A DNA stretch of 64,000 nt, taken from an uncultured Pelagibacteraceae bacterium. GTDB taxonomy: Bacteria > Pseudomonadota > Alphaproteobacteria > Pelagibacterales > Pelagibacteraceae. Within the stretch, counting starts at the first letter, position 1; each line of letters starts with the position of its first letter. A program made the position numbers and the translations under genes. The notes under the pieces were generated by a model. It was not told the DNA's origin and did not search any database. It saw only the letters and a list, made by a program, of their open reading frames with translations. Below are positions 1 through 14,074 of the stretch, piece after piece. The stretch spans positions 1 through 64,000 of the forward strand of contig CACLUK010000003.1 of the NCBI GenBank assembly GCA_902610115.1. The letters run 5' to 3'.

Positions 1-2595
1 AATCATTACCTTGATGTTCCGGAAATTGCTTATAATGGTCTCAAAGGTTTTTTCTTGAATTATCAAGAGATTAACATTGATTTGCCGTATGAGAATTTAA
101 TTATTATCGAAAAAAATAGAAAAGAAATTCTTGAAACTTCAGAGAATAATATGAGATCAGGCAGTCAAGTGTTTGATCAAGTTGAAGGTTTTATCAGTTA
201 TAAAGATCAATCAGCAAGAGTAAGGCTAAGGCTAAAAGGTGACAGGATTAGTCATTTCGAAGATAAAGAAAAGGCTTCATATAAACTTGAGATTATTGGG
301 GAGAATAAAGTAAAAGGAGTCAGAAAATTTTCTTTCATCAAACCAAGAGCAAGAAATTATATTCATGAATGGCTTTTTCATGAAATGGCTGAAGATGGAA
401 ACTTGATAAAACTTAAATATGAATTTGTAAAACTTAAAATAAATGGAGAAAGCCAGGGCCTTTATGTGTTTGAAGAAGGTTTTGATAAAGATCTTATAGA
501 AAGAAATAAAAGAAGAAATGGCCCTATATTTTCTATGTATGAGGAATTTGACAGTGATATTTTTAATTCAAAATTTGAGTTATATAATAAAAATTTTTGG
601 AATAGAAAGGAAAATATTAATCAAGCAAGTTTTGCAAGAAATAAATTACAAGGTTTTATTAAACAAAAATTTAATTTAGAGGAAGTATTTGACCAAGAAA
701 AATGGGCTTATTTATTTGCATTAGCAGACCTGACTCAAACGCACCATGGGTTGGCACCAAATAATGTTAAATTTTTTTATAATACAATAAGCGGTCTTTT
801 TGAACCAATACCTTACGACGGACACAGATTTGCAAAGAATTTTCATCCTTATTTAAAAGATTATGACAATAGAAATACTTTTGAGTTTGCAGAAATTTGT
901 AAATTTAATAATAAAGTTAGTTGTAACGAAGAGGAGAAAAAATCAAAATGGTTGTCAGCTTTCTTTTTTAACTCTGAAGGAGAGCTAAATGAGGAGTTTT
1001 ATTTACATTATCTAAATGCAATAAGAAAAATAACAAGCGAAAAATATTTAGATGCTTTTTTTCAAAAAAGAAAAAAAAATATTTCAGAAATAAATTCTGC
1101 AATTTATTCTGATTATTTTTTAATAGATAATGTCACATATGGTAAGTATGGACCAGGTTTATATTATTTTTCAAAAGATGATTTATATTTCAGAGCTAAA
1201 GTTTTGAAGAGTAAAGTTAAAGTAAAACTAAATAAAATTTCAGCTATTCAAACTATTGATCAAATTGTCGTTGAAAATAATGATTTAAATAAAAATATTT
1301 CATTAAAATTAAATGGCATCATATGTGAAAAAATTGAAAATGATTGGAGAAAGAATTTTATCCATAAAATTAAGTTGGACCAAAATTTAAACAATAAAAT
1401 CAAAATTTCAAGAAATCAAGGAGACCTTCAAAAAACAAACTGTACGCATATAAAACTAGAAGATAAATTAAATGGACAAGTATTCATAAAAAAAATTAAT
1501 TTTAATAATGAATTATTTTTTCCAGAAAAAAAAATATCAGACAGATACAAAAAATATTTTTCTCGAAGTCAAAATACTTTATATTTAAACAACTCTAAAA
1601 CAATTATCTCAGAAGACATAACTATTCCTAAAGGTTTTGTAGTAAAAATAAAACCTGGAGAAGAAATAATTTTATTAAATAATTCATTTATTATATCTGA
1701 CTCGCCCTGGATAGTTGGAGATACAGGTAAAAAAGTTTTTATAGGTGGCAATAAAGATAATTTTGGCGGGGGATTAGTAATAAAAAATTCTGGGAGAAAC
1801 TCAAAATTCTTTAACACTAATTTTAAATATTTATCTGGCGTTGAAAATAGATATTTATCAGATACAAATAATAAGAAATCACTTATCTTAACAAAATATT
1901 CTGATACTAAGAAGAATAATTATATTTACGAAAGAAAAAATACTGATAACACTCATTATACGCTTACAGACAAATTTAGTTATACTGGAGCAATAAATTT
2001 TTACAAAACAAAAGTAGTTTTAAATGACTGTCTTTTTTCAAAAATTGACTCTGAGGATGCTATTAACTTAATTTCTTCAGAGTTTTTAATGGATAAGTTA
2101 AATTTTGATGAAAATAGCTCAGATGCCATTGATGTAGATTTTGGTAATGGGACAATAATAAACTCAAATTTTTACAATATAGGCAATGATGCAATAGATT
2201 TGTCAGGTTCAAAAGTTGGGTTAGAAAATTTATTTTTTTCAAAGGTTGGAGATAAGATTATAAGCGTAGGTGAAAATTCACAAGTTGAAATTTTTAAAGT
2301 TGTTGGTGAAGAATCCTATGTAGGAATTGCAAGTAAAGATGGATCAAAAAGTATAGTTAAAAATATTTCTTTTAACCAAGTAAAAATTCCATTCGCGTCC
2401 TACAGAAAAAAAAAATCGTATGATTATGGTACATTAAAAATTTATGATCCCATAAATTTGGTAAATTATGTTTCAAGAAATGTTAAAGATAAAAATTCAT
2501 CACTATATGTGAACGATATTAAAGTGAAGGAATTTAATAAAAATGCTTTTAACACAATTTATAAAAAAAAATTAGATTTAGTATATGAGCAATAG
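1..2595 (+). CDS. CotH-kinase-like / parallel beta-helix protein (5' partial)
   Basis: The frame is open to base 1, so the true start lies upstream; the first usable start codon in the window is TTG at 55. The N-terminal half resembles the CotH protein-kinase family: an arginine-rich strand with RLKGDR near 220-250, a GLYVFEE-GFDKDLIER stretch near 460-505, and a PYDGHR motif near 811-828 resembling the family's acidic catalytic strand. The C-terminal third (about 1550-2400) has short repeats with Asn/Asp ladders (DAIDVDFGN, DAIDLSGS) typical of a right-handed beta-helix, suggesting a surface or secreted fold. It overlaps the next gene by 11 bp, so the two are probably co-translated. CotH proteins phosphorylate proteins; the target here is unknown. 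Signal peptide status cannot be judged. Confidence 0.75.
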   Translation, partial: NHYLDVPEIAYNGLKGFFLNYQEINIDLPYENLIIIEKNRKEILETSENNMRSGSQVFDQVEGFISYKDQSARVRLRLKGDRISHFEDKEKASYKLEIIGENKVKGVRKFSFIKPRARNYIHEWLFHEMAEDGNLIKLKYEFVKLKINGESQGLYVFEEGFDKDLIERNKRRNGPIFSMYEEFDSDIFNSKFELYNKNFWNRKENINQASFARNKLQGFIKQKFNLEEVFDQEKWAYLFALADLTQTHHGLAPNNVKFFYNTISGLFEPIPYDGHRFAKNFHPYLKDYDNRNTFEFAEICKFNNKVSCNEEEKKSKWLSAFFFNSEGELNEEFYLHYLNAIRKITSEKYLDAFFQKRKKNISEINSAIYSDYFLIDNVTYGKYGPGLYYFSKDDLYFRAKVLKSKVKVKLNKISAIQTIDQIVVENNDLNKNISLKLNGIICEKIENDWRKNFIHKIKLDQNLNNKIKISRNQGDLQKTNCTHIKLEDKLNGQVFIKKINFNNELFFPEKKISDRYKKYFSRSQNTLYLNNSKTIISEDITIPKGFVVKIKPGEEIILLNNSFIISDSPWIVGDTGKKVFIGGNKDNFGGGLVIKNSGRNSKFFNTNFKYLSGVENRYLSDTNNKKSLILTKYSDTKKNNYIYERKNTDNTHYTLTDKFSYTGAINFYKTKVVLNDCLFSKIDSEDAINLISSEFLMDKLNFDENSSDAIDVDFGNGTIINSNFYNIGNDAIDLSGSKVGLENLFFSKVGDKIISVGENSQVEIFKVVGEESYVGIASKDGSKSIVKNISFNQVKIPFASYRKKKSYDYGTLKIYDPINLVNYVSRNVKDKNSSLYVNDIKVKEFNKNAFNTIYKKKLDLVYEQ

Positions 2596-3274
2596 GTTAA
2601 AAACTTCTTCTTCGATTAATAGGCTTGAAAGAAAGTGGGCACTCAATGGAAATGTGGACGTAAATGCATTCTCCATCGCAATCTCTAAGAGCAATTTTTT
2701 CTTTAGAGAAATCTACTCACCAAGAAGTATTAATACAGTTTATTTTGATGACACAAGTCTTTCCTCTATTAATGAAAATTTAGACGGAGTGACATACAAA
2801 AAAAAGTTTAGAGTTCGTTGGTACGGAGACTCTAAGGTTATCTCAAAACCACAACTTGAAATTAAATCGAAAGTCGGATTTATAACTAAGAAAAAAACTT
2901 TTTTAATTGATAATTTTGATGATACGAAATTTGATTACGAAGGTATTGTAAAAATTTCTAATATTTTTCAAGAAAAACTAAAAATTAACAAAATATTAAA
3001 TCCTATTTTAAGCACACACTATCTAAGATATTATTTCTTATCACATAATAAAAATATTAGATCTACATTTGATGTAAATCTGAGAAGTCATCAGCTTTTT
3101 GGATCAAATGATTTTAGTTTTAAAAAAAATTTTAATAATCAAGTTTTTGAAATTAAGTACAATAAAATTTACGATAATTACGTAAAAAATAATCTTAAAG
3201 ATATCTCATTTAGAATGTCAAAAAGCTCTAAATATATAATCAGTGCATTAAATATACCAACAAGCTTTTCCTAG
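2585..3274 (+). CDS. VTC-domain polyphosphate polymerase-like protein
   Basis: The 229-residue protein matches the VTC catalytic fold, which in yeast Vtc4 makes polyphosphate from ATP. Visible family landmarks are ERKW (15-18), YFDD (53-56), the phosphate-binding RVR pair (76-78), LEIKSK (91-96), an RS-TFD strand (159-163) and FEIK (188-191). The order matches a triphosphate-tunnel barrel with inward basic residues. It is a soluble single domain with no membrane segment. It starts inside the end of the CotH-like gene and its stop abuts the start of the exported pyrophosphatase, so the three are probably one transcript. VTC-domain genes beside CotH genes are a known bacterial neighbourhood. 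Activity is inferred from the family. Confidence 0.8.
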   Translation: MSNRLKTSSSINRLERKWALNGNVDVNAFSIAISKSNFFFREIYSPRSINTVYFDDTSLSSINENLDGVTYKKKFRVRWYGDSKVISKPQLEIKSKVGFITKKKTFLIDNFDDTKFDYEGIVKISNIFQEKLKINKILNPILSTHYLRYYFLSHNKNIRSTFDVNLRSHQLFGSNDFSFKKNFNNQVFEIKYNKIYDNYVKNNLKDISFRMSKSSKYIISALNIPTSFS

Positions 3275-3904
3275 ATGATCAAGTTAAATTTTATACTTCA
3301 AATAATATCAATTTTACTTTTTTCTGAAATTGCTTTTTCCAATGATCAAAATCTAATTTCAGATATTAAAATTTATAACGAAGATAAAACAATTAATGCA
3401 GTAATAGAAATCCCAGCAGGGACATTGGAGAAGTGGGAAATATCTAAAGATGGAAAAAAAATAGAACAAGAAATTAACAACAGCCAAATACGAAAGATAA
3501 ATTATTTGGCATATCCTTTTAATTATGGATTTGTTCCTCAAACAGTGATCCCAGTAGAAGAGGGAGGAGATGGAGATCAATTAGATATTATAATTATTGG
3601 ACCTACAATAAAAAGAGGTTCAATTGTAAAAGTAAAACCTATAGGAGCATTAATCGCAATAGATAACAATGAAATCGATACAAAAATTGTAAGTGTAGTA
3701 GTTAGTGATTTAGAAATTTCACGAATAAATTCAATTAGTGATTTAAATAAAAATTATCTAGGTCTTTTTGACATAATTTTAACTTGGGTAGAAAACTATA
3801 AAGGTGAAGTTATAGAAATTAAGAATACAATTGGTAAAAAAGCAACTTTCAAATATATAAATAAGTATCACGAAAAATATTTAGCAAATAAAAAGGATAA
3901 TTAG
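3275..3904 (+). CDS. ppa: Exported family I inorganic pyrophosphatase
   Basis: The 209-residue protein resembles soluble family I pyrophosphatase (PPi to 2 Pi), but the first about 22 residues form a hydrophobic signal peptide ending near AFSND, so it is likely periplasmic. The catalytic set looks complete: E45, K53, E55, R73, Y84, the GDGDxxD motif with D99/D101/D104, then D130, D135, K137 and a C-terminal YK pair. The start ATG abuts the VTC stop codon. Housekeeping Ppa is cytoplasmic, so an exported copy next to a polyphosphate-polymerase-like gene suggests a role in extracytoplasmic phosphate chemistry. The enzyme call is firm; the periplasmic location is inferred from the leader. Confidence 0.85.
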   Translation: MIKLNFILQIISILLFSEIAFSNDQNLISDIKIYNEDKTINAVIEIPAGTLEKWEISKDGKKIEQEINNSQIRKINYLAYPFNYGFVPQTVIPVEEGGDGDQLDIIIIGPTIKRGSIVKVKPIGALIAIDNNEIDTKIVSVVVSDLEISRINSISDLNKNYLGLFDIILTWVENYKGEVIEIKNTIGKKATFKYINKYHEKYLANKKDN

Positions 3905-3988: not shown

Positions 3989-5047
3989 ATGAAAGCTAAC
4001 CACCTTTACTCAACAGACGGAAAAGTAAAACATCTCTCTACTGAAGAGGATATCAATGTTAAAATTGGTAAAATAATTGGTGAAAAATTCATAAATTATA
4101 GAAAGACATGGGACGCAGCAAACAGGTTTGAAATAGTTACAGATTTCCCTCTTTTTTTACATTTGGATATGACGCAAAATTGTAACTATAAATGTCCGCA
4201 TTGTATTATTGGTCATAAAGATGAAGTTGCAGGCTTTTATGAAGGAGATGCTTTAAATTTCCAAGACTATAAAAGAATTGTAGATGAGGGATCCGATTAC
4301 GGCTGCCCTTCGATTTCACCTCAAGGAAATGACGAGCCATTTTTGATGAAGAATTTACATGAATATATCAAGTATGCGAGCAAAAAAGGATTTATAGATA
4401 TAATGCTTAATAATAATGGTTCAGCAATCACCAAAAGAAGGGCGCAAGAAGTGCTCGACTCTGGATTGACAAGAATAAGATTTAGTCTAGATGCTTTTAC
4501 CCCAGACACTTATGCAAAGGTTAGAGTTGGGAGCATTCCTTTAGATAGGGTAATAAAAAATATAGAGTTATTCTTAGAGTTGAAAGAAAAAGGAAATTAT
4601 AAATTACCTGTGACTGGAGTAAGCTTCGTAAAGATGAAACAAAATGAGCATGAGATAGATAGATTTATAAATTTTTGGCAAGATAAAGTTGATATGGTTT
4701 CTATTCAAACTTTTACCCCACCTACAAAAAATTTAGAAAAATACAAAAAATTTTATTCTTCAGATCAATTGGCCGAAGGAGAGCCAATAACAGAATTTAA
4801 ATGTGTACAACCTTTTCAAAGAGTAGTAATTCATAATAAAGTCATCGCTCCTTGTTGTGTAAATTTTAATCAAGAACTAAAAATCGGTCATCTCGATACA
4901 GGCACAATATATGAAGCATGGCACTCAGAAAAAATGAACAACATTAGAAATATGCATAAAAGAGGAGAGTATTATTTGAACGAAACTTGTCGAGATTGTG
5001 TAAAATTAATTTTCCCTAATAATAAGATTAAAATTCCTCAAATATAG
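3989..5047 (+). CDS. Radical SAM/SPASM domain protein
   Basis: The 352-residue protein carries the radical SAM cluster motif CxxxCxxC (C65, C69, C72) in an N-terminal TIM-barrel region. A Cys-rich SPASM-like C-terminus follows (CVQPF, a CC pair, CRDC near residues 272-340) that would hold auxiliary iron-sulfur clusters. Such enzymes use S-adenosylmethionine to generate radicals for peptide, sugar or cofactor modification. Sitting at the head of a sugar-nucleotide cassette with an isomerase, aldolase and cytidylyltransferase, it may modify a sugar intermediate (for example deoxygenation or epimerisation), but its substrate cannot be read from sequence. An 84-bp gap separates it from the pyrophosphatase gene, so it may begin a new transcript. 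Confidence 0.85.
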   Translation: MKANHLYSTDGKVKHLSTEEDINVKIGKIIGEKFINYRKTWDAANRFEIVTDFPLFLHLDMTQNCNYKCPHCIIGHKDEVAGFYEGDALNFQDYKRIVDEGSDYGCPSISPQGNDEPFLMKNLHEYIKYASKKGFIDIMLNNNGSAITKRRAQEVLDSGLTRIRFSLDAFTPDTYAKVRVGSIPLDRVIKNIELFLELKEKGNYKLPVTGVSFVKMKQNEHEIDRFINFWQDKVDMVSIQTFTPPTKNLEKYKKFYSSDQLAEGEPITEFKCVQPFQRVVIHNKVIAPCCVNFNQELKIGHLDTGTIYEAWHSEKMNNIRNMHKRGEYYLNETCRDCVKLIFPNNKIKIPQI

Positions 5048-5060
5048 TTAAAATTTTTAA

Positions 5061-5651
5061 ATGTTCGACATTAACAATTATTTTACAAAAAGTTCCAAAG
5101 CGATTCTGTCTTTATCAAAATTTGAAAAAGAAATAAAAATTATTTGTGAGGAGATTTTAAAAGTTAAAAAAAATAATAATAAAATATTAATTGCAGGTAA
5201 TGGAGGGTCTTGCTCTGATGCAGAACACTTTGCTGGAGAACTGCAATGTACTTATAAAAAGAAAAATAGAAAAGCTATTTCTGCTATATCATTAGGAACT
5301 ATGCCAGCTGCTATGAGTGCGTGGTCAAATGATTTTGGTTATTTAACATTTTTTAAAAGACAAGTCGAAGCTCATGGAAACAAAGATGATTTACTATTTT
5401 TGATAACAACCGGCGGAGGATCAAAAGGTAATAGTACAGCAACACAATCAATGAATTTAGTAGAAGCAGCAAAAATTGCTAAAGAAAAAGGTTTAAAAGT
5501 TATAGCTTTAAATGGAAAATCGGGCGGAGAATTAAAATCACTATCGGACATAAGTATAGTCGTTGAAAGTGAAATAACATCACACATACAAGAATGTCAT
5601 ATAACGATTTTACACAGCATATGTGAGATTTTAGATGAAAAAGATTTTTAA
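5061..5651 (+). CDS. gmhA: SIS-domain phosphoheptose isomerase-like protein
   Basis: The 196-residue length and layout match sedoheptulose-7-phosphate isomerase GmhA: a SIS core with GNGGSCSDAEHF (47-58), TTGGGSKGNS phosphate loop and a C-terminal IQECH...H helix carrying the second part of the metal/catalytic site. The usual GNGGSAADA has Cys in place of the first Ala. GmhA starts ADP- or GDP-heptose synthesis. Here no hldE/hddA-type heptose kinase is adjacent; instead an aldolase and a CMP-type cytidylyltransferase follow. The product may therefore feed a different activated sugar. It starts 13 bp after the radical SAM gene. Confidence 0.82.
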   Translation: MFDINNYFTKSSKAILSLSKFEKEIKIICEEILKVKKNNNKILIAGNGGSCSDAEHFAGELQCTYKKKNRKAISAISLGTMPAAMSAWSNDFGYLTFFKRQVEAHGNKDDLLFLITTGGGSKGNSTATQSMNLVEAAKIAKEKGLKVIALNGKSGGELKSLSDISIVVESEITSHIQECHITILHSICEILDEKDF

Positions 5652-5703
5652 TGTTTTTTTTAAACTAAAATAATTATCATAATTAAATTTTCATAAAAAT
5701 ATT

Positions 5704-6489
5704 ATGAATTCAAAACTTAAAAAAAACCTTGTATCTGAAATAAAAAAATTAAAAAATTTAGGTTTGTCTGGAGTGAAGCTTTCTCTTGAAGACGAAGGAT
5801 CTACTTTTGAAGACTTAAGAATAATGTCAAAAATAACAAAATCTTTAAATATAAATTTAAACATAAAAATTGGAGGATGCGAAGCAAAAAACGATATCAA
5901 TTTTTGTAAATCTCTCAATCCAAACAGTATTGTGGCACCTATGGTCGAAAGTGAATATGCTTTAAAAAAATTCATTCAGTCTGTTGGAAAAAAAAAAAAA
6001 ATTAAGTTATTAATTAATTTAGAATCAATATCGGCAATAAAAAATATTTCAAAACTTTTAAACTCAAAATATTTCAGAAAATTAGACGGCGTGGTAATTG
6101 GCAGATCAGATTTAGCTGGTTCACTCAATTTATCAAAAAAAGACGTAAATAAGGAAGTTATCTTTAAAATTATAAAGAAAACAATCGTAAAAATAAAAAA
6201 AAGAGTAAAGTCTAATTTTCTTATTAAAATGGGAGGCTCAATAACTCCAAAGTCTAAAAATTTTATAGATAAACTTTATAAATCTAAATTAATAAATAGA
6301 ATTGAGACACGAAATATTGAGCTAAAATTAAATAATAATATAATTCAAAATACTGAAAAAATAATTCCAGAGATATTTAAATTTGAACTTGAGTGGCTCA
6401 AAATTAAATTAACTTTGGTAAAAAATAAGATTTTGTCAAAAGAATATAAGATCAGAATTAGGGAATTAGAGGAAAGGTTAAGAAGATAA
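5704..6489 (+). CDS. HpcH/HpaI-like aldolase family protein
   Basis: The 261-residue protein resembles class II HpcH/HpaI (citrate-lyase beta-like) aldolases, which reversibly join pyruvate or oxaloacetate to an aldehyde. Metal-ligand positions are visible: E107 in INLES and D136 in IGRSDLAGS (132-140). The APMVES strand (78-83) matches the family's VPMV strand. The usual active-site Arg strand (VRP) reads IKIGG here, which could shift substrate choice. The last about 40 residues form a charged helix. Neighbours are a GmhA-like isomerase and a CMP-sugar cytidylyltransferase, so a role in making a keto-sugar acid is plausible but unproven. Confidence 0.65.
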   Translation: MNSKLKKNLVSEIKKLKNLGLSGVKLSLEDEGSTFEDLRIMSKITKSLNINLNIKIGGCEAKNDINFCKSLNPNSIVAPMVESEYALKKFIQSVGKKKKIKLLINLESISAIKNISKLLNSKYFRKLDGVVIGRSDLAGSLNLSKKDVNKEVIFKIIKKTIVKIKKRVKSNFLIKMGGSITPKSKNFIDKLYKSKLINRIETRNIELKLNNNIIQNTEKIIPEIFKFELEWLKIKLTLVKNKILSKEYKIRIRELEERLRR

Positions 6490-6490
6490 A

Positions 6491-7153
6491 TTGAAAAAAA
6501 AACAAATATTTGCAGTTATACCTGTGCGAAAGGGTTCTCAAAGGGTAAAAAATAAAAGTTTAAGAAAATTTAATAAAAAAAATCTACTAATTTATAAAAT
6601 TGAAAAATTAAAAAAAATCAAAGAATTGGATAAGATAATTGTCAATACAGACTCCGATGAGGCAATAGATATTGCAAAATTTTATAAAGTCGAGTTTTGG
6701 AAAAGAGAAAAATATTTTGCTTCATCTAGATGTCTTAATAGTGAATTTTGGCAGCATATAGCTTCCAATACATCGAGCCATTATATAATGTTTACTAATT
6801 GCACTTCACCACTAGTCAAAATCGAAACATATAAAAAATTTTTACGAATTTTCTTAAAAAATAAAAATTTACATGACAGTCTTAATACTGTTTGCGACGA
6901 AAAACAGTTTCTTTATATGAATAATAAAGCATTAAATTTTAATCCCAAAAAAGCGCCCAATTCTCAAGACTTACCAAACGTTGTAAAATTGAATTTTGCC
7001 ATAAATCTAATTTTCAGAGAAAGAATGTTAAAAAAAAAAAGTGTGGTTGGTAATAAACCCAAGTTTTTCAAATTAGATGAAATCGAAGGTTTCGATATTG
7101 ACACTCAACATGATTTTGAGTTTGCAGAACATTTACATAAAAAATTATTTTAA
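6491..7153 (+). CDS. CMP-sugar cytidylyltransferase (NeuA/KdsB-like)
   Basis: The 220-residue protein has the acylneuraminate/CMP-KDO cytidylyltransferase signature at the N-terminus, IPVRKGSQRVKNKSL (10-24), followed by a Rossmann-like GT-A nucleotidyltransferase fold with a TDSDEA strand and the C-terminal FDIDTQHDFEFAE stretch common in NeuA-type enzymes. The family activates 2-keto-3-deoxy sugar acids with CTP. The start is TTG at 6491, 1 bp after the aldolase stop. No PEP-dependent synthase (NeuB or KdsA) is nearby, so the sugar acid it activates may come from the preceding aldolase. Confidence 0.78.
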   Translation: MKKKQIFAVIPVRKGSQRVKNKSLRKFNKKNLLIYKIEKLKKIKELDKIIVNTDSDEAIDIAKFYKVEFWKREKYFASSRCLNSEFWQHIASNTSSHYIMFTNCTSPLVKIETYKKFLRIFLKNKNLHDSLNTVCDEKQFLYMNNKALNFNPKKAPNSQDLPNVVKLNFAINLIFRERMLKKKSVVGNKPKFFKLDEIEGFDIDTQHDFEFAEHLHKKLF

Positions 7154-8140
7154 ATGAGAAAGATATTAGTAACTGGTGGTGCTGGATTTATAGGCGCACA
7201 CTTGGTCGACAAACTAATTAAAAGAAAATATAAAGTACTTGTAGTTGACTCACTTAAAACAATTGGTGGGATACCTTTCATTAATCCTAAATCAAAATTT
7301 CTAAAGGGAGATATCCTTGATACAAAAATTTTAAAAAAGATAAAAAAATGGAAACCACAGGTTATTTATCATTTAGCAGCACAATCAGGAGGAGAAAGTG
7401 CTTATGACGATCCAAAATATGATTATCTTTCTAATGGTTATGGAACCTTTCAGCTGGCTAAACTAGCAAAAGAATTAAATGTAAAACATTTCATTTATTC
7501 GAGTTCTGTTGCTGTTTACGGTTCTTCAAGAAAAAAAAAAATAACTGAGAATAGCAGTATAAACCCCGACTCAATTTACGGAATATCGAAATATGTAGGA
7601 GAAATGTTTATAAAACAAATCTTATATAAAACAAAAACTAAAACAACTATTTTTAGGGTATTTAACACTTTCGGCCCAGGTGAAAATTTAAATTTTCTTA
7701 AAAAAGGAATGGTTAGTATTTATTGTAGCTATGTTTGGCGAAATAAACCAATAATAGTAAAAGGATCTTTAAACAGAATTAGAAACTATCAATACATAGA
7801 CGATGTCGTTAATATCCTATTTTTATCTCTAAAAAATAAAAAACTTAAAAAAAATGAAATTTTGAATTTAACAACTGGAAAAGCTATTAAAGTAAAAGAA
7901 TTAATAAAAAAAATTTTAAGAATTGAAAAAAAAATTAGTTATAAAATAATATCTAAGGGAAATACACCTGGAGATTCCTTCGGTTTTGATGCAAGTAATA
8001 AATTATTAAAAAACAAGTTTGACAATTACAAATTTGTGACCCTTGAAGATGGTATAAAAGATTATTTTAAATGGATAAATTTAGTTCCTAAAATTAAAAA
8101 TCTAAAAAACTTTCACCCATTTAACAAAAAATTTAAATAA
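7154..8140 (+). CDS. NAD-dependent epimerase/dehydratase (extended SDR)
   Basis: The 328-residue extended short-chain dehydrogenase has the dinucleotide-binding TGGAGFIG (7-14), the catalytic SSS near 116-118 and YxxxK at Y142/K146 (YGISK). Extended SDRs of this type epimerise or dehydrate nucleotide-activated sugars. The closest look is to GalE/WbpP-like or UDP-glucuronate epimerases, but specificity cannot be assigned. The start codon abuts the cytidylyltransferase stop, so it belongs to the same operon and probably acts on the CMP-sugar pathway or a separate UDP-sugar. Confidence 0.82.
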   Translation: MRKILVTGGAGFIGAHLVDKLIKRKYKVLVVDSLKTIGGIPFINPKSKFLKGDILDTKILKKIKKWKPQVIYHLAAQSGGESAYDDPKYDYLSNGYGTFQLAKLAKELNVKHFIYSSSVAVYGSSRKKKITENSSINPDSIYGISKYVGEMFIKQILYKTKTKTTIFRVFNTFGPGENLNFLKKGMVSIYCSYVWRNKPIIVKGSLNRIRNYQYIDDVVNILFLSLKNKKLKKNEILNLTTGKAIKVKELIKKILRIEKKISYKIISKGNTPGDSFGFDASNKLLKNKFDNYKFVTLEDGIKDYFKWINLVPKIKNLKNFHPFNKKFK

Positions 8141-8144
8141 GATT

Positions 8145-9851
8145 ATGCAAACCCTTTTAAATCAAGCAAACTCTTTTTTAGATAAAGATCAAAGAATACA
8201 AGCTGTATTATTAATAGCTATCATGTTGGTTGCGGCTTTTACAGAGCTTTTAGGTTTAGGTTTATTTTTGTTATTACTTAATAATTTTTTAGGTATTTCC
8301 AATAAAGTAGATGGAGATTATTTAAACTCTTTTTTAACAAAATTTACTGACAAGATAAATTTAAATGAAATTTTACTGTTATTTTTTTTTATTTTCACAT
8401 TTAAACTATTATTGCAATTATTTGTAACATGGAATCTTAGTTCATTTGTTGCAAAGTTGAGGGAGAGAATTTCTTTAAAGTTATACACCAATTTTCTTAA
8501 GAGAGACCCCTCTAAACTATTATCAAAAAATAGCTCTGAATATTTGAGAAACTTTACAGATGAAATTGGTCAAGCTGCTCTTTTTTATCAAAGCACAATT
8601 AGCATTCTTCTTGATTTTATAATCTTTTTGACTTTTGTTAGTTTTTTATTATTTTACAATCCTTTCTATTCATCGATAGTTATTATTTTCTTTTCAATGA
8701 TTGGCCTTTGTTTTTATTTGATATTTCAAGGTAAATTAATGAAATGGGCAAAAAAAGGAATTGAGAATAGAAGAAAAAAAATTCAATTTGTTAATGAAAG
8801 CTTTTCTGCTATCAAATATATAAAAATTTTTTCGAGTGAAAATTATTTTCTTCGAAAATTCAGAATAGAAAATATTTCTATTTCGAAAATCTCTTTTAAA
8901 TACCTTTTTTTATCAGGCATACCAAGACATCTTTTTGAGTACACATTATTTTTAAGCATTTTATTAGTTCTCTTATTTCTTTTAGATTTAAAAATGCCAA
9001 ACGAAAGAATTTTACAAATGCTGGGAGTATATACTTTAGTTGCTTTTAGAATAATTCCGATTATTAATAAAATCTTAGTAAGTGCGCAGCATATTAGATT
9101 TACCCAACCGAGTTTTATAAAACTTTACTTAGAACATCAAAAACCTATTTTATCAAGGAGTTTAAATTTTAAAGATTTTTCTTTCAAAAAAAATATAGCA
9201 ATCAAAATTAAAAAATTTAAGTACGAAAGTAAGAAAAATTTTTATTTAAAAAATATAAATTTAATTATTTCAAAAGGTTCTAAAATAGGAATTATCGGAT
9301 CTAGTGGTTCGGGAAAAAGTACAATTATAGATATTATTTGCGGGTTTACTAAACTAAACGATGGTAAAATCTTAATTGACAACAAGAATATTTTTGAAAA
9401 TCTTGAGGGCTGGCAAAATAAAATTGGTTATATTCCACAAAATGTTGTAATTCTTAATCAATCTTTAAGAGATAATATTTTATTTGGTTCTAGTTCAGAA
9501 AAATATACTGATACTAAAATTAAAAAAATAATTAAACAAGTTAAATTAGATAAGTTTTTACAAAAATTACCAAATAAACTATCTCAGATAATTAAACAAG
9601 ATGGTAGTAATATTTCTGGTGGTGAAAAGCAAAGAATAGGAATTGCCAGAGCTTTATTACGTAATCCAGAATTAATATTGTTAGACGAAGCAACAAGTGG
9701 ATTAGATAGTTTTACAGAACAAAAAGTTTTAGAAACAATTAAAGATCTTCAAAAAACTGTAATCATTGTTTCTCACAGAATAAACACTTTAAAATTTTGT
9801 GACAAAGTGTATAGGATTGATAAAAGCACTACCAAATTAACGAACATTTAA
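8145..9851 (+). CDS. ABC transporter, fused permease-ATPase (PglK/MsbA-like flippase)
   Basis: The 568-residue half-transporter has about six membrane helices in residues 1-330 and an ATPase domain after about 350. Walker A GSSGSGKST is near residue 385, the signature SGGEKQR near 490, Walker B LILLDEATSGLD near 508 and the switch His in VSHR near 541. The layout matches lipid-linked oligosaccharide flippases such as PglK, or the lipid A flippase MsbA. Its position within a glycan cassette, 4 bp after the SDR gene, suggests it flips a lipid-linked sugar across the inner membrane. Confidence 0.85.
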   Translation: MQTLLNQANSFLDKDQRIQAVLLIAIMLVAAFTELLGLGLFLLLLNNFLGISNKVDGDYLNSFLTKFTDKINLNEILLLFFFIFTFKLLLQLFVTWNLSSFVAKLRERISLKLYTNFLKRDPSKLLSKNSSEYLRNFTDEIGQAALFYQSTISILLDFIIFLTFVSFLLFYNPFYSSIVIIFFSMIGLCFYLIFQGKLMKWAKKGIENRRKKIQFVNESFSAIKYIKIFSSENYFLRKFRIENISISKISFKYLFLSGIPRHLFEYTLFLSILLVLLFLLDLKMPNERILQMLGVYTLVAFRIIPIINKILVSAQHIRFTQPSFIKLYLEHQKPILSRSLNFKDFSFKKNIAIKIKKFKYESKKNFYLKNINLIISKGSKIGIIGSSGSGKSTIIDIICGFTKLNDGKILIDNKNIFENLEGWQNKIGYIPQNVVILNQSLRDNILFGSSSEKYTDTKIKKIIKQVKLDKFLQKLPNKLSQIIKQDGSNISGGEKQRIGIARALLRNPELILLDEATSGLDSFTEQKVLETIKDLQKTVIIVSHRINTLKFCDKVYRIDKSTTKLTNI

Positions 9852-11561: not shown

Positions 11562-12767
11562 GTGAAAAGCAATCAAAAAATTAAAACAATTGTTATTCTA
11601 ATTGAAAATATCCTCTACGGAGGGACCACAACTCATTTAATAAATTTTTTGAACAGCAACCATTTTAAAAAGAAACAATTTATAATATTAACAAATAGAA
11701 ATAATCAAGCTATCCATCAGATTAAGAAAGATGTTAAAAGTAAAAACTTTAAATTTTTTTTTTATAATTCGTTTAATATTACTTTAAGTAAATTCTTATT
11801 TTTCCGAATAATATTCATTATTTTTAAACCTATATTATTTTTAATCTCGATATTTCAAATGTATTTTATTTTAAAAAAATTAAATTATGATTTATTATTT
11901 GCAATTTGCGGAGGATATGGTGATTTCAGAAGCGAAACCGCTGGTTTAATTGCAAGTAGATTATTAAAATTTAAAAATAATTTTCTATTGATACATCACA
12001 ATTATTCAAAACCTATTTTATGGCGTAGTATTGTTTTACTATTTGATAAAATTGCAAGTAGAGGAGTTAAATATTTAATTTTTACTAATAATGCTACAAA
12101 AAAATCAATTATAAATCATTCAAAAATTGCAGATATAAGTAAATCTAAAATAAAAATTATTAGGAATGGTCTATCTTTAAGTAAGGTAAAATACAAAAAA
12201 ATCCAAATTTTAAACTCAAATAAAAAAAAAATTAAAATTGGAATGTTGTCAAGATTAGAAAAATATAAGGGCCACGAAGATATGATCGATGGGATTTCTA
12301 TATTGCCACTTAATATAAAAAAAAATTTTTTAGTTTTCTTCATCGGCAAAGGAGAAAAAAAATTTATTGATCTTTTAAAAAAAAAAATCGTCCAAAAAGG
12401 GTTAAATAAACAAGTTGTTTTTTTAGATTATATTAATGCTGATAGCAGAGAAATACTAAAAAATTTAAATTTACTAGTTTCTTTGACTAGGGATTTCGAG
12501 AGCTTTGGATATAGTTTGGCTGAGTCGATGCTTGTAGGAACTCCTGTATTGACTACAAATGTAGGAGGTATATCAGAATACTTAAATAAAAATAATTCTT
12601 ACTTAATAAAGCCAAAAGATCCAAAACAATTGAGTAAATCTTTAGTAAACTTTTATTTTAACAGACATTTATGGAGAAAAAGAGCAAAAGTAGGAAAAAG
12701 TTTAATCAAAAAAAAGTTTAATTCAAATATTATGTCAAAAAATTTTTTATATCTTTTTAAAAAATAA
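11562..12767 (+). CDS. Glycosyltransferase family 4
   Basis: The 401-residue protein has a GT-B fold. The C-terminal domain shows an IGMLSRLEKYKGHE strand-loop (near residue 226) and the E-x7-E motif ESFGYSLAE followed by SMLVGTPVLTTNVGGISEYL-type sequence (near 309-340), diagnostic for GT4 retaining transferases. It starts with GTG at 11562. A hydrophobic stretch near residues 80-105 may associate it with the membrane. It would add a hexose to a lipid-linked glycan; donor and acceptor are unknown. It closes the first sugar cassette, followed by a 239-bp gap. Confidence 0.85.
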   Translation: MKSNQKIKTIVILIENILYGGTTTHLINFLNSNHFKKKQFIILTNRNNQAIHQIKKDVKSKNFKFFFYNSFNITLSKFLFFRIIFIIFKPILFLISIFQMYFILKKLNYDLLFAICGGYGDFRSETAGLIASRLLKFKNNFLLIHHNYSKPILWRSIVLLFDKIASRGVKYLIFTNNATKKSIINHSKIADISKSKIKIIRNGLSLSKVKYKKIQILNSNKKKIKIGMLSRLEKYKGHEDMIDGISILPLNIKKNFLVFFIGKGEKKFIDLLKKKIVQKGLNKQVVFLDYINADSREILKNLNLLVSLTRDFESFGYSLAESMLVGTPVLTTNVGGISEYLNKNNSYLIKPKDPKQLSKSLVNFYFNRHLWRKRAKVGKSLIKKKFNSNIMSKNFLYLFKK

Positions 12768-13006
12768 TAACTTTTTTTACATAAAAAAATCGTAATACTT
12801 AAAGTTTTTGTTCAAAAACACAAACTTATAAAATATTCTATTTTTCGTAAAATCTTATTAAAAAACTAATATACTTATTATATAAATATTATAATTTTTG
12901 ATATACAATGATTGTTTATTAATTAAAAATAGCTACAAGGAAAAATTATTTTTTTAAATATAATACAAAGACTCTTCATTATTCGCAGATTTCCGATTAT
13001 TAAAAA
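12768..13006. other. Intergenic gap between two glycan cassettes
   Basis: This 239-bp stretch is the longest non-coding gap in the window and is almost purely A+T. I see no gene. It holds a short perfect inverted repeat at 12804-12819 (7-bp arms, 2-base loop) that lacks a following T-run, so it is a weak terminator candidate. It also has several TATA-like runs around 12880-12915 that could serve as a promoter for the CDP-hexose genes. Confidence 0.4.
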
Positions 13007-14074
13007 ATGAAAAATTTAAAAAAACATTTTTATAAAAAAAAGGTTGTAATAACTGGACACACAGGTTTCAAAGGATCTTGGCTCACTCTGTGGCTACAAT
13101 CTTATGGTGCAAACATTTATGGAATTTCTAATGGATATCCGTCTAATCCTTCAAACTTTAAGATTTTAAAGTTGGGAAATAAGATAAATCATAACATAAT
13201 GGATTTAAGAAATTTGCCAAAATTAAAAAAAATGATAAATAAAATAAAACCTGACTATATTTTCCATCTTGCAGCACAGTCCTTAGTAAAGGAGTCTTTT
13301 GAAAATCCTATCACCACTTTTACATCTAATTCTATTGGGACATGTAATGTGCTAGAGTCGATAAGACATTTAAAAAACAAATGTGTCGTTGTAATAATTA
13401 CAAGCGATAAAAGTTATAAAAATCTTGAAATTAAAAGAGGATATAATGAAGAAGATTTAATCGGAGGAGTTGATCCATATAGTGCTTCTAAAGGTTGTGC
13501 TGAACTTATTATTAAGTCGTATTATGAGAGTTTTTTAAAAAAAAAAACAAATATTAAAATTGGTATTTCAAGAGCAGGAAATGTGATAGGTGGGGGAGAT
13601 TGGTCAAAAAATAGAATTATACCTGATTGTATTAAAGCTTGGTCAAAAGAAAACTTTTTAAAGGTTAGAAACCCTAAGTCTACTAGACCTTGGCAACACG
13701 TTCTCGAAGTTTTATATGGATATTTAAAGTTAGCAACTCGACTGAAAAAAGACAAAACTATTAATGGCCATGCTTTTAATTTTGGTCCCAATAAAACTCA
13801 AGATAAAACAGTCAACTCTCTGTTAATAGAAAGCAAAAAATATTGGATAAATGCTCGGTGGTTGCCAAAAAAAGATAAAAGTTTTAAGGAATCTTCCCTA
13901 TTAAAATTAGACTCCTCAAAAGCAAATAAAAAATTACAATGGTTTAATAGTCTATCCTTTTTTGAAACAGTCAAAATGACAATGCAATGGTATCTAAGAT
14001 ATTTAGGTAGTGAAAATATGTATGAATTTTCAATAAATCAAATAAAAAGATACGAAACAAAAATTAAAAATTAA
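13007..14074 (+). CDS. rfbG: CDP-glucose 4,6-dehydratase
   Basis: The 355-residue protein closely fits CDP-glucose 4,6-dehydratase, which makes CDP-4-keto-6-deoxyglucose from CDP-glucose using bound NAD. Visible marks are the family-typical TGHTGFKGSWL nucleotide-binding loop (16-26), HLAAQSLV (87-94), TSDKSYKN, YSASKGCAEL with catalytic Tyr/Lys near 157-161, and RAGNVIGGGDW. The partner enzyme RfbF is encoded four genes downstream. It begins the second sugar cassette after an A+T-rich gap, so it may have its own promoter. Confidence 0.92.
   Translation: MKNLKKHFYKKKVVITGHTGFKGSWLTLWLQSYGANIYGISNGYPSNPSNFKILKLGNKINHNIMDLRNLPKLKKMINKIKPDYIFHLAAQSLVKESFENPITTFTSNSIGTCNVLESIRHLKNKCVVVIITSDKSYKNLEIKRGYNEEDLIGGVDPYSASKGCAELIIKSYYESFLKKKTNIKIGISRAGNVIGGGDWSKNRIIPDCIKAWSKENFLKVRNPKSTRPWQHVLEVLYGYLKLATRLKKDKTINGHAFNFGPNKTQDKTVNSLLIESKKYWINARWLPKKDKSFKESSLLKLDSSKANKKLQWFNSLSFFETVKMTMQWYLRYLGSENMYEFSINQIKRYETKIKN

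Follow-up and report, generated by a model that had tools for sequence, protein, structure and literature searches.

A SAR11 gene set for probable polyphosphate synthesis and action at the cell surface, joined by a secreted pyrophosphatase

Described relatives and the locus in the window

Genes encoding DUF4956, VTC and CotH proteins have previously been described, without a mechanism, as accessory to the Pel clusters of Gram-positive bacteria (PMC7112168). In S. intermedius, deletion of two genes of this set (DUF4956, CotH) changes Pel, and the authors of that study found the DUF4956-VTC-CotH set only at Pel loci (PMC12345266). The Pel accessory group and the set that we describe here from SAR11 both combine the three families, with an exported CotH protein and with VTC and DUF4956 proteins that are alike in the two. 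They differ in that (i) the SAR11 CotH protein carries a beta-helix where the Pel-cluster CotH carries FN3, (ii) an exported inorganic pyrophosphatase (PPase) has been added or fused to the SAR11 set, and (iii) the set considered here occurs also in SAR11 and in other phyla. No mention of a PPase in a DUF4956-VTC-CotH set was found in the open-access literature.

Yeast VTC synthesises polyphosphate at the cytosolic face of the membrane and passes the chain across it (PMC9911596). The eukaryotic VTC complex (Vtc4) shares with the SAR11 protein the VTC domain, the conserved tunnel residues and the cytosolic location, which for SAR11 is predicted (PMC9911596), and acidocalcisomes, for which a soluble PPase has been reported (PMC4263762), resemble the predicted SAR11 arrangement of a soluble family-I PPase across the membrane from VTC. 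In SAR11, however, VTC and the membrane part are separate proteins without an SPX domain, a channel role of DUF4956 is a candidate only, and the CotH/beta-helix protein has no counterpart in the eukaryotic system. Compared with the Bacillus CotH kinase (5jd9/5jda), the protein described here has the same fold and metal Asp, but a His in place of the catalytic Asp, a large C-terminal beta-helix and a membrane anchor in a Gram-negative cell. The PPase in turn shares family and catalytic residues with soluble family-I PPases, but is exported, is fused to the CotH/beta-helix protein in one genome, and is the sole PF00719 gene of its genome.

In the window (the whole stretch of 64,000 nucleotides that was analysed), the genes for CotH, VTC and PPase stand head to tail within positions 1-3904: the CotH frame and the VTC gene overlap by 11 bp, and the start codon of the PPase gene directly follows the VTC stop. 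The coordinates (1-3904) and the spacing (overlapping by 11 bp, then abutting) given in an earlier, sequence-only reading of this DNA are correct. The features are the following.

1-2595, + strand: CotH-like/beta-helix gene; open frame of 864 aa without a start, 5' end cut at the contig edge
58-1230 (residues 20-410), + strand: CotH-fold domain (5jd9 profile match, structure Z, residue columns)
1531-2544 (residues 511-848), + strand: right-handed beta-helix (AlphaFold model, structural matches, invariant residues)
D686, D708, D711, D713, D730, D733, D751, K752, E758, K779, D780, K803: invariant Asp/Lys/Glu face of the beta-helix
2585-3274, + strand: VTC-domain polyphosphate-polymerase-like protein without a leader (Pfam, Vtc4 residues)
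3275-3904, + strand: exported family-I inorganic pyrophosphatase (Pfam, catalytic residues)
3275-3340, + strand: predicted PPase signal peptide of 22 residues (judged from the sequence; nearly all relatives have hydrophobic leaders)

The Pfam scores in the window are 29.6 bits for CotH (PF08757; cut-off 23.8), 73.5 bits for VTC (PF09359; cut-off 23) and 100.6 bits for Pyrophosphatase (PF00719; cut-off 23.5). Base 1 of contig C3 is the first base of the window, so that the CotH gene is truncated at its 5' end, and about 59 residues including the membrane anchor are missing when it is compared with the closest relative, L048 (genome G198), whose CotH and PPase are, respectively, 89% and 90% identical to those of the window. 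In L048 the gene order DUF4956-CotH-VTC-PPase is intact, CotH has its membrane anchor, and the first downstream genes are those also found in the window. The fourth gene, DUF4956, lies upstream of CotH in L048 and off the contig in the window; DUF4956, VTC and CotH stand side by side in L048 and other relatives. The sequence-only reading was right in regarding CotH-VTC adjacency as known (PMC7112168), but had omitted DUF4956 as the third constant partner.

On the 3' side of the module, positions 3989-9851 encode a radical SAM/SPASM protein, a SIS isomerase and a HpcH/HpaI-like aldolase, all three of which are also kept in L048, as well as a pseudaminic-acid-type cytidylyltransferase, an epimerase and a PglK-like ABC flippase. 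No Pel family was recognised among these window genes or among the commonest neighbour families (the upstream side lies off the contig).

The earlier assignment of a VTC-like domain agrees with the alignment. The family profile ranks yeast Vtc4 first (4.5e-16), and the columns matching the Vtc4 tunnel (R264, R266, E426 and neighbours, the three named residues being among those mutated in PMC9911596) are invariant in 29 sequences, with R76, R78, E189 and others as their equivalents in the window. A leader was found in none of 31 VTC proteins, and VTC is predicted to be located inside the inner membrane. DUF4956 is predicted to span the membrane with several helices, and its C-terminal domain is ACT/PII-like; a structural search gave no convincing PDB match that would make it a known polyphosphate channel. 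The PPase had been read as exported and catalytically complete, and indeed the full set of catalytic residues is present in the window (E45, K53, E55, R73, Y84, D99, D101, D104, D130, D135, K137, Y175, K176), while its leader, MIKLNFILQIISILLFSEIAFS, fits a signal peptide by eye and by hydrophobicity scan. Its predicted location is outside the inner membrane.

Linkage of the pyrophosphatase to the gene set

Our survey of the order (SAR11) comprised 247 genomes, 29 of which have VTC, and the genes around the VTC hits are nearly always DUF4956, CotH and VTC. Soluble family-I PPase (PF00719) was found in six of the 247 genomes, in one copy each, and all six copies sit at the module locus; the module-PPase profile and the Pfam PPase model recover the same six genomes. 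The PPase gene comes after VTC in the window and L048, between CotH and VTC in L042, and before DUF4956 in L038 and L043, and in L055 (on the same contig as L134) the enzyme is fused to the C-terminus of the CotH/beta-helix protein. In this fusion, which was revealed by single-sequence phmmer, the PPase occupies residues 717-893 of 901, and its E31 is replaced by Gln, so that the fused enzyme may have weak activity. The five free module PPases all have hydrophobic leaders. The sequence-only reading had claimed that the three genes belong together, and had proposed a search of SAR11 genomes for VTC-CotH-exported PPase adjacency; co-occurrence was found in 6 of the 29 VTC genomes (the other 23 lack the soluble PPase), and the claim is borne out by the location of all six soluble PPases of the 247 genomes at the locus, by the CotH fusion and by recurrence of the cluster in other phyla.

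Chance neighbourhood of a house-keeping PPase is ruled out, PF00719 being absent from 241 of the 247 genomes and all of its copies being at the module. H+-PPase was found in five of the six PPase-bearing genomes (the sixth genome is 89% complete), which provides another cytosolic enzyme for pyrophosphate (PPi), so that the exported PPase need not be house-keeping. Among the 29 VTC-bearing genomes, PPK1 is present in nine, and PPK2, likewise sought, was found in none; VTC is thus the sole polyphosphate-polymerase candidate detected in several genomes, including the complete G026. A general replacement of PPK by VTC is no rule, given the nine genomes with PPK1.

A PPase scan covered 84,980 species, and the best 80 relatives, nearly all of which have a leader or lipobox, were taken. 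Three of these are Pelagibacteraceae at the module, and at least four of the other 77 listed lie within a few kilobases of a complete DUF4956-CotH-VTC set, namely L083 (Flavobacteriales), L101 (Gammaproteobacteria), L113 (Bacteroidales, all four genes pointing the same way) and L147 (uncultured). As many contigs are short, four is a minimum. VTC occurs in 8 of 329 genomes of the phylum, and given this rate, which does not cover Bacteroidota, the four extra co-localisations are well above chance. Full DUF4956-CotH-VTC modules without PPase are also present in the phylum sample (L167, L170, L172, L173), which makes the PPase an optional part.

It might be argued that the exported PPase scavenges external pyrophosphate in general and stands beside the module by happenstance. 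Scarce phosphate would favour scavenging, and most exported PPase relatives in other phyla are, among the matches listed, away from the module. However, the location of all six PPases of the order at the module, one of them fused, speaks strongly against this explanation, as do the further co-localisations in other lineages in view of the rarity of VTC, and no other family recurs beside exported PPases among the matches listed. We therefore consider happenstance very improbable.

The CotH-like/beta-helix protein and the possible chemistry

The sequence-only reading described the first gene as encoding a CotH-like kinase with a beta-helix tail. The fold stands, being supported by the Pfam score, by a 5jd9 profile match (7.9e-21) and by comparison of the AlphaFold model with 5jd9 (Z 25.8). 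However, H249 of the window stands at the position of the catalytic D228 of Bacillus subtilis CotH, and this column is His in 26 of 30 CotH relatives, the window included. Since the Asp is essential in Bacillus CotH (D228Q is inactive; PMC7821199), the reading as a working kinase is weakened. The metal Asp (D251 of Bacillus) is kept as D273 in the window and is Asp in 26 of 30. A signal check on full CotH proteins, as had been suggested, revealed an N-terminal anchor or leader in 24 of 26 complete ones, including the anchor in L048, and the protein is predicted to lie outside the inner membrane.

Loss of the one Asp and retention of the other bear on the idea that the CotH-like domain is a pseudokinase turned transferase, which would modify a surface glycan or protein by transfer of a nucleotidyl group or the like, with direct release of PPi, the PPase driving this step and VTC/DUF4956 supplying or sensing phosphate. 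SelO is a pseudokinase that became an AMP-transferase. Besides the residue pattern and the inactive Bacillus mutant, it would fit that the PPase could directly pull a PPi-releasing step, and that one PPase is fused to the CotH protein itself. However, it is not known that ATP is available beyond the inner membrane, some relatives have lost the metal Asp, and the most conserved part of the protein is the beta-helix and not the CotH domain, so that we regard a transferase as unlikely.

The beta-helix is confirmed by the AlphaFold model (residues 511-848, with residues ∼515-840 mostly at pLDDT 85-97), but it is not a mere tail, since the strongest conservation lies there. Across 30 relatives from several phyla (alignment A3), 15 residues are invariant in the beta-helix versus 2 in the kinase-like half. 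They are mostly Asp, Lys, Ser and Glu, with an Asp every ∼22 residues, that is, one per coil, and Lys/Glu alongside, and this conserved face points to the beta-helix as the carrier of the working surface.

Among known structures the beta-helix is best matched by AlgG, a periplasmic alginate epimerase (Z 27.0, r.m.s.d. 2.4, 274 aligned). Such a match would suit a polysaccharide-modifying module, in which the beta-helix binds or modifies a glycan, CotH and VTC regulate the beta-helix or adjust the supply of phosphate, and the PPase does no more than recycle phosphate. The same can be said of the Pel-cluster accessory group (PMC7112168), of the altered Pel levels after deletion of the S. intermedius DUF4956 or CotH gene (PMC12345266), and of the glycan genes downstream in the window. 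Yet beta-helices look alike, many unrelated ones also scoring Z 22-27, and none of the SAR11 CotH/beta-helix proteins has the AlgG motif DPH[DE], on which ground AlgG-type catalysis was rejected; furthermore, the SAR11 module neighbours are mixed, with many house-keeping genes, and the tight link to the PPase would be left unexplained. A polysaccharide-modifying module appears rather unlikely to us.

The SAR11 gene set, then, probably makes polyphosphate and acts at the cell surface, and the repeated gain of a secreted PPase, once fused, suggests that a phosphate reaction not yet described takes place beyond the cell membrane. Our best explanation, which we put forward tentatively as a good possibility short of being probable, is a self-contained envelope module of DUF4956, CotH/beta-helix and VTC with an added exported PPase, in which VTC makes polyphosphate inside and the PPase removes PPi outside. 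Judging from Vtc4 homology and the conserved tunnel residues, we infer that VTC would make polyphosphate from ATP in the cytosol. DUF4956 would couple this synthesis to the membrane and possibly pass the chain outward, where the membrane-anchored CotH-like/beta-helix protein would act beyond the inner membrane; its substrate would be polyphosphate or a surface glycan, and the face of the beta-helix would be the likely binding or catalytic surface. The exported PPase would hydrolyse the resulting PPi, be it the final unit left when a polyphosphate chain has been consumed or the by-product of a transfer, and hydrolysis would pull the reaction and return phosphate for uptake. Of the surface polyphosphate module proposed in the sequence-only reading, the gene linkage, the predicted compartments and the Vtc4 residues are supported, whereas CotH as a working kinase, with His for Asp, is weakened. 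It counts against our best explanation that VTC deletion in S. intermedius left aggregation unchanged (PMC12345266), that DUF4956 gave no structural match to a polyphosphate channel, that the PPase is missing from 23 of the 29 VTC genomes, and that the fused copy has Gln for E31.

In a wider and rather doubtful version, several phyla would perform (pyro)phosphoryl transfer outside the inner membrane with exported polyphosphate instead of ATP as the donor, VTC/DUF4956 delivering it, CotH/beta-helix transferring to surface polymers, and a dedicated PPase, exported or fused, pulling the reaction. The repeated joining of the PPase, once by fusion, suggests pyrophosphate or short polyphosphate as a product and the space outside the inner membrane as a compartment, so that the module chemistry can be tested. 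With these findings the module is also located in free-living ocean bacteria, for which phosphate can be in short supply.

Evolutionary history and exported pyrophosphatases elsewhere

On the CotH tree the presence of the PPase changes at least six times, and the starred branches force all six (by a quick method). The PPase tree unites the SAR11 copies with modest support (89) and places the other four elsewhere, which corresponds to five changes; a single origin is also compatible with this tree. The history is most simply read as repeated gain or loss at a single locus.

Family-I PPases that are exported or lipoproteins (L077-L156) occur widely in marine Bacteroidota, Vibrionaceae, Planctomycetota and other groups; among the matches listed, most lie off the module. 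An exported PPase domain is fused to a ParB-like nuclease domain in Vibrio (L120:8987-10546) and to an ASCH domain in Winogradskyella (L098:9434-10540). A Marinimicrobia contig (L119; genes noted at 6336-6980 and 12698-13303) encodes an exported PPase that lies near those of SAR11 in the tree, and has a DUF4956 gene ∼6 kb away at the contig end.
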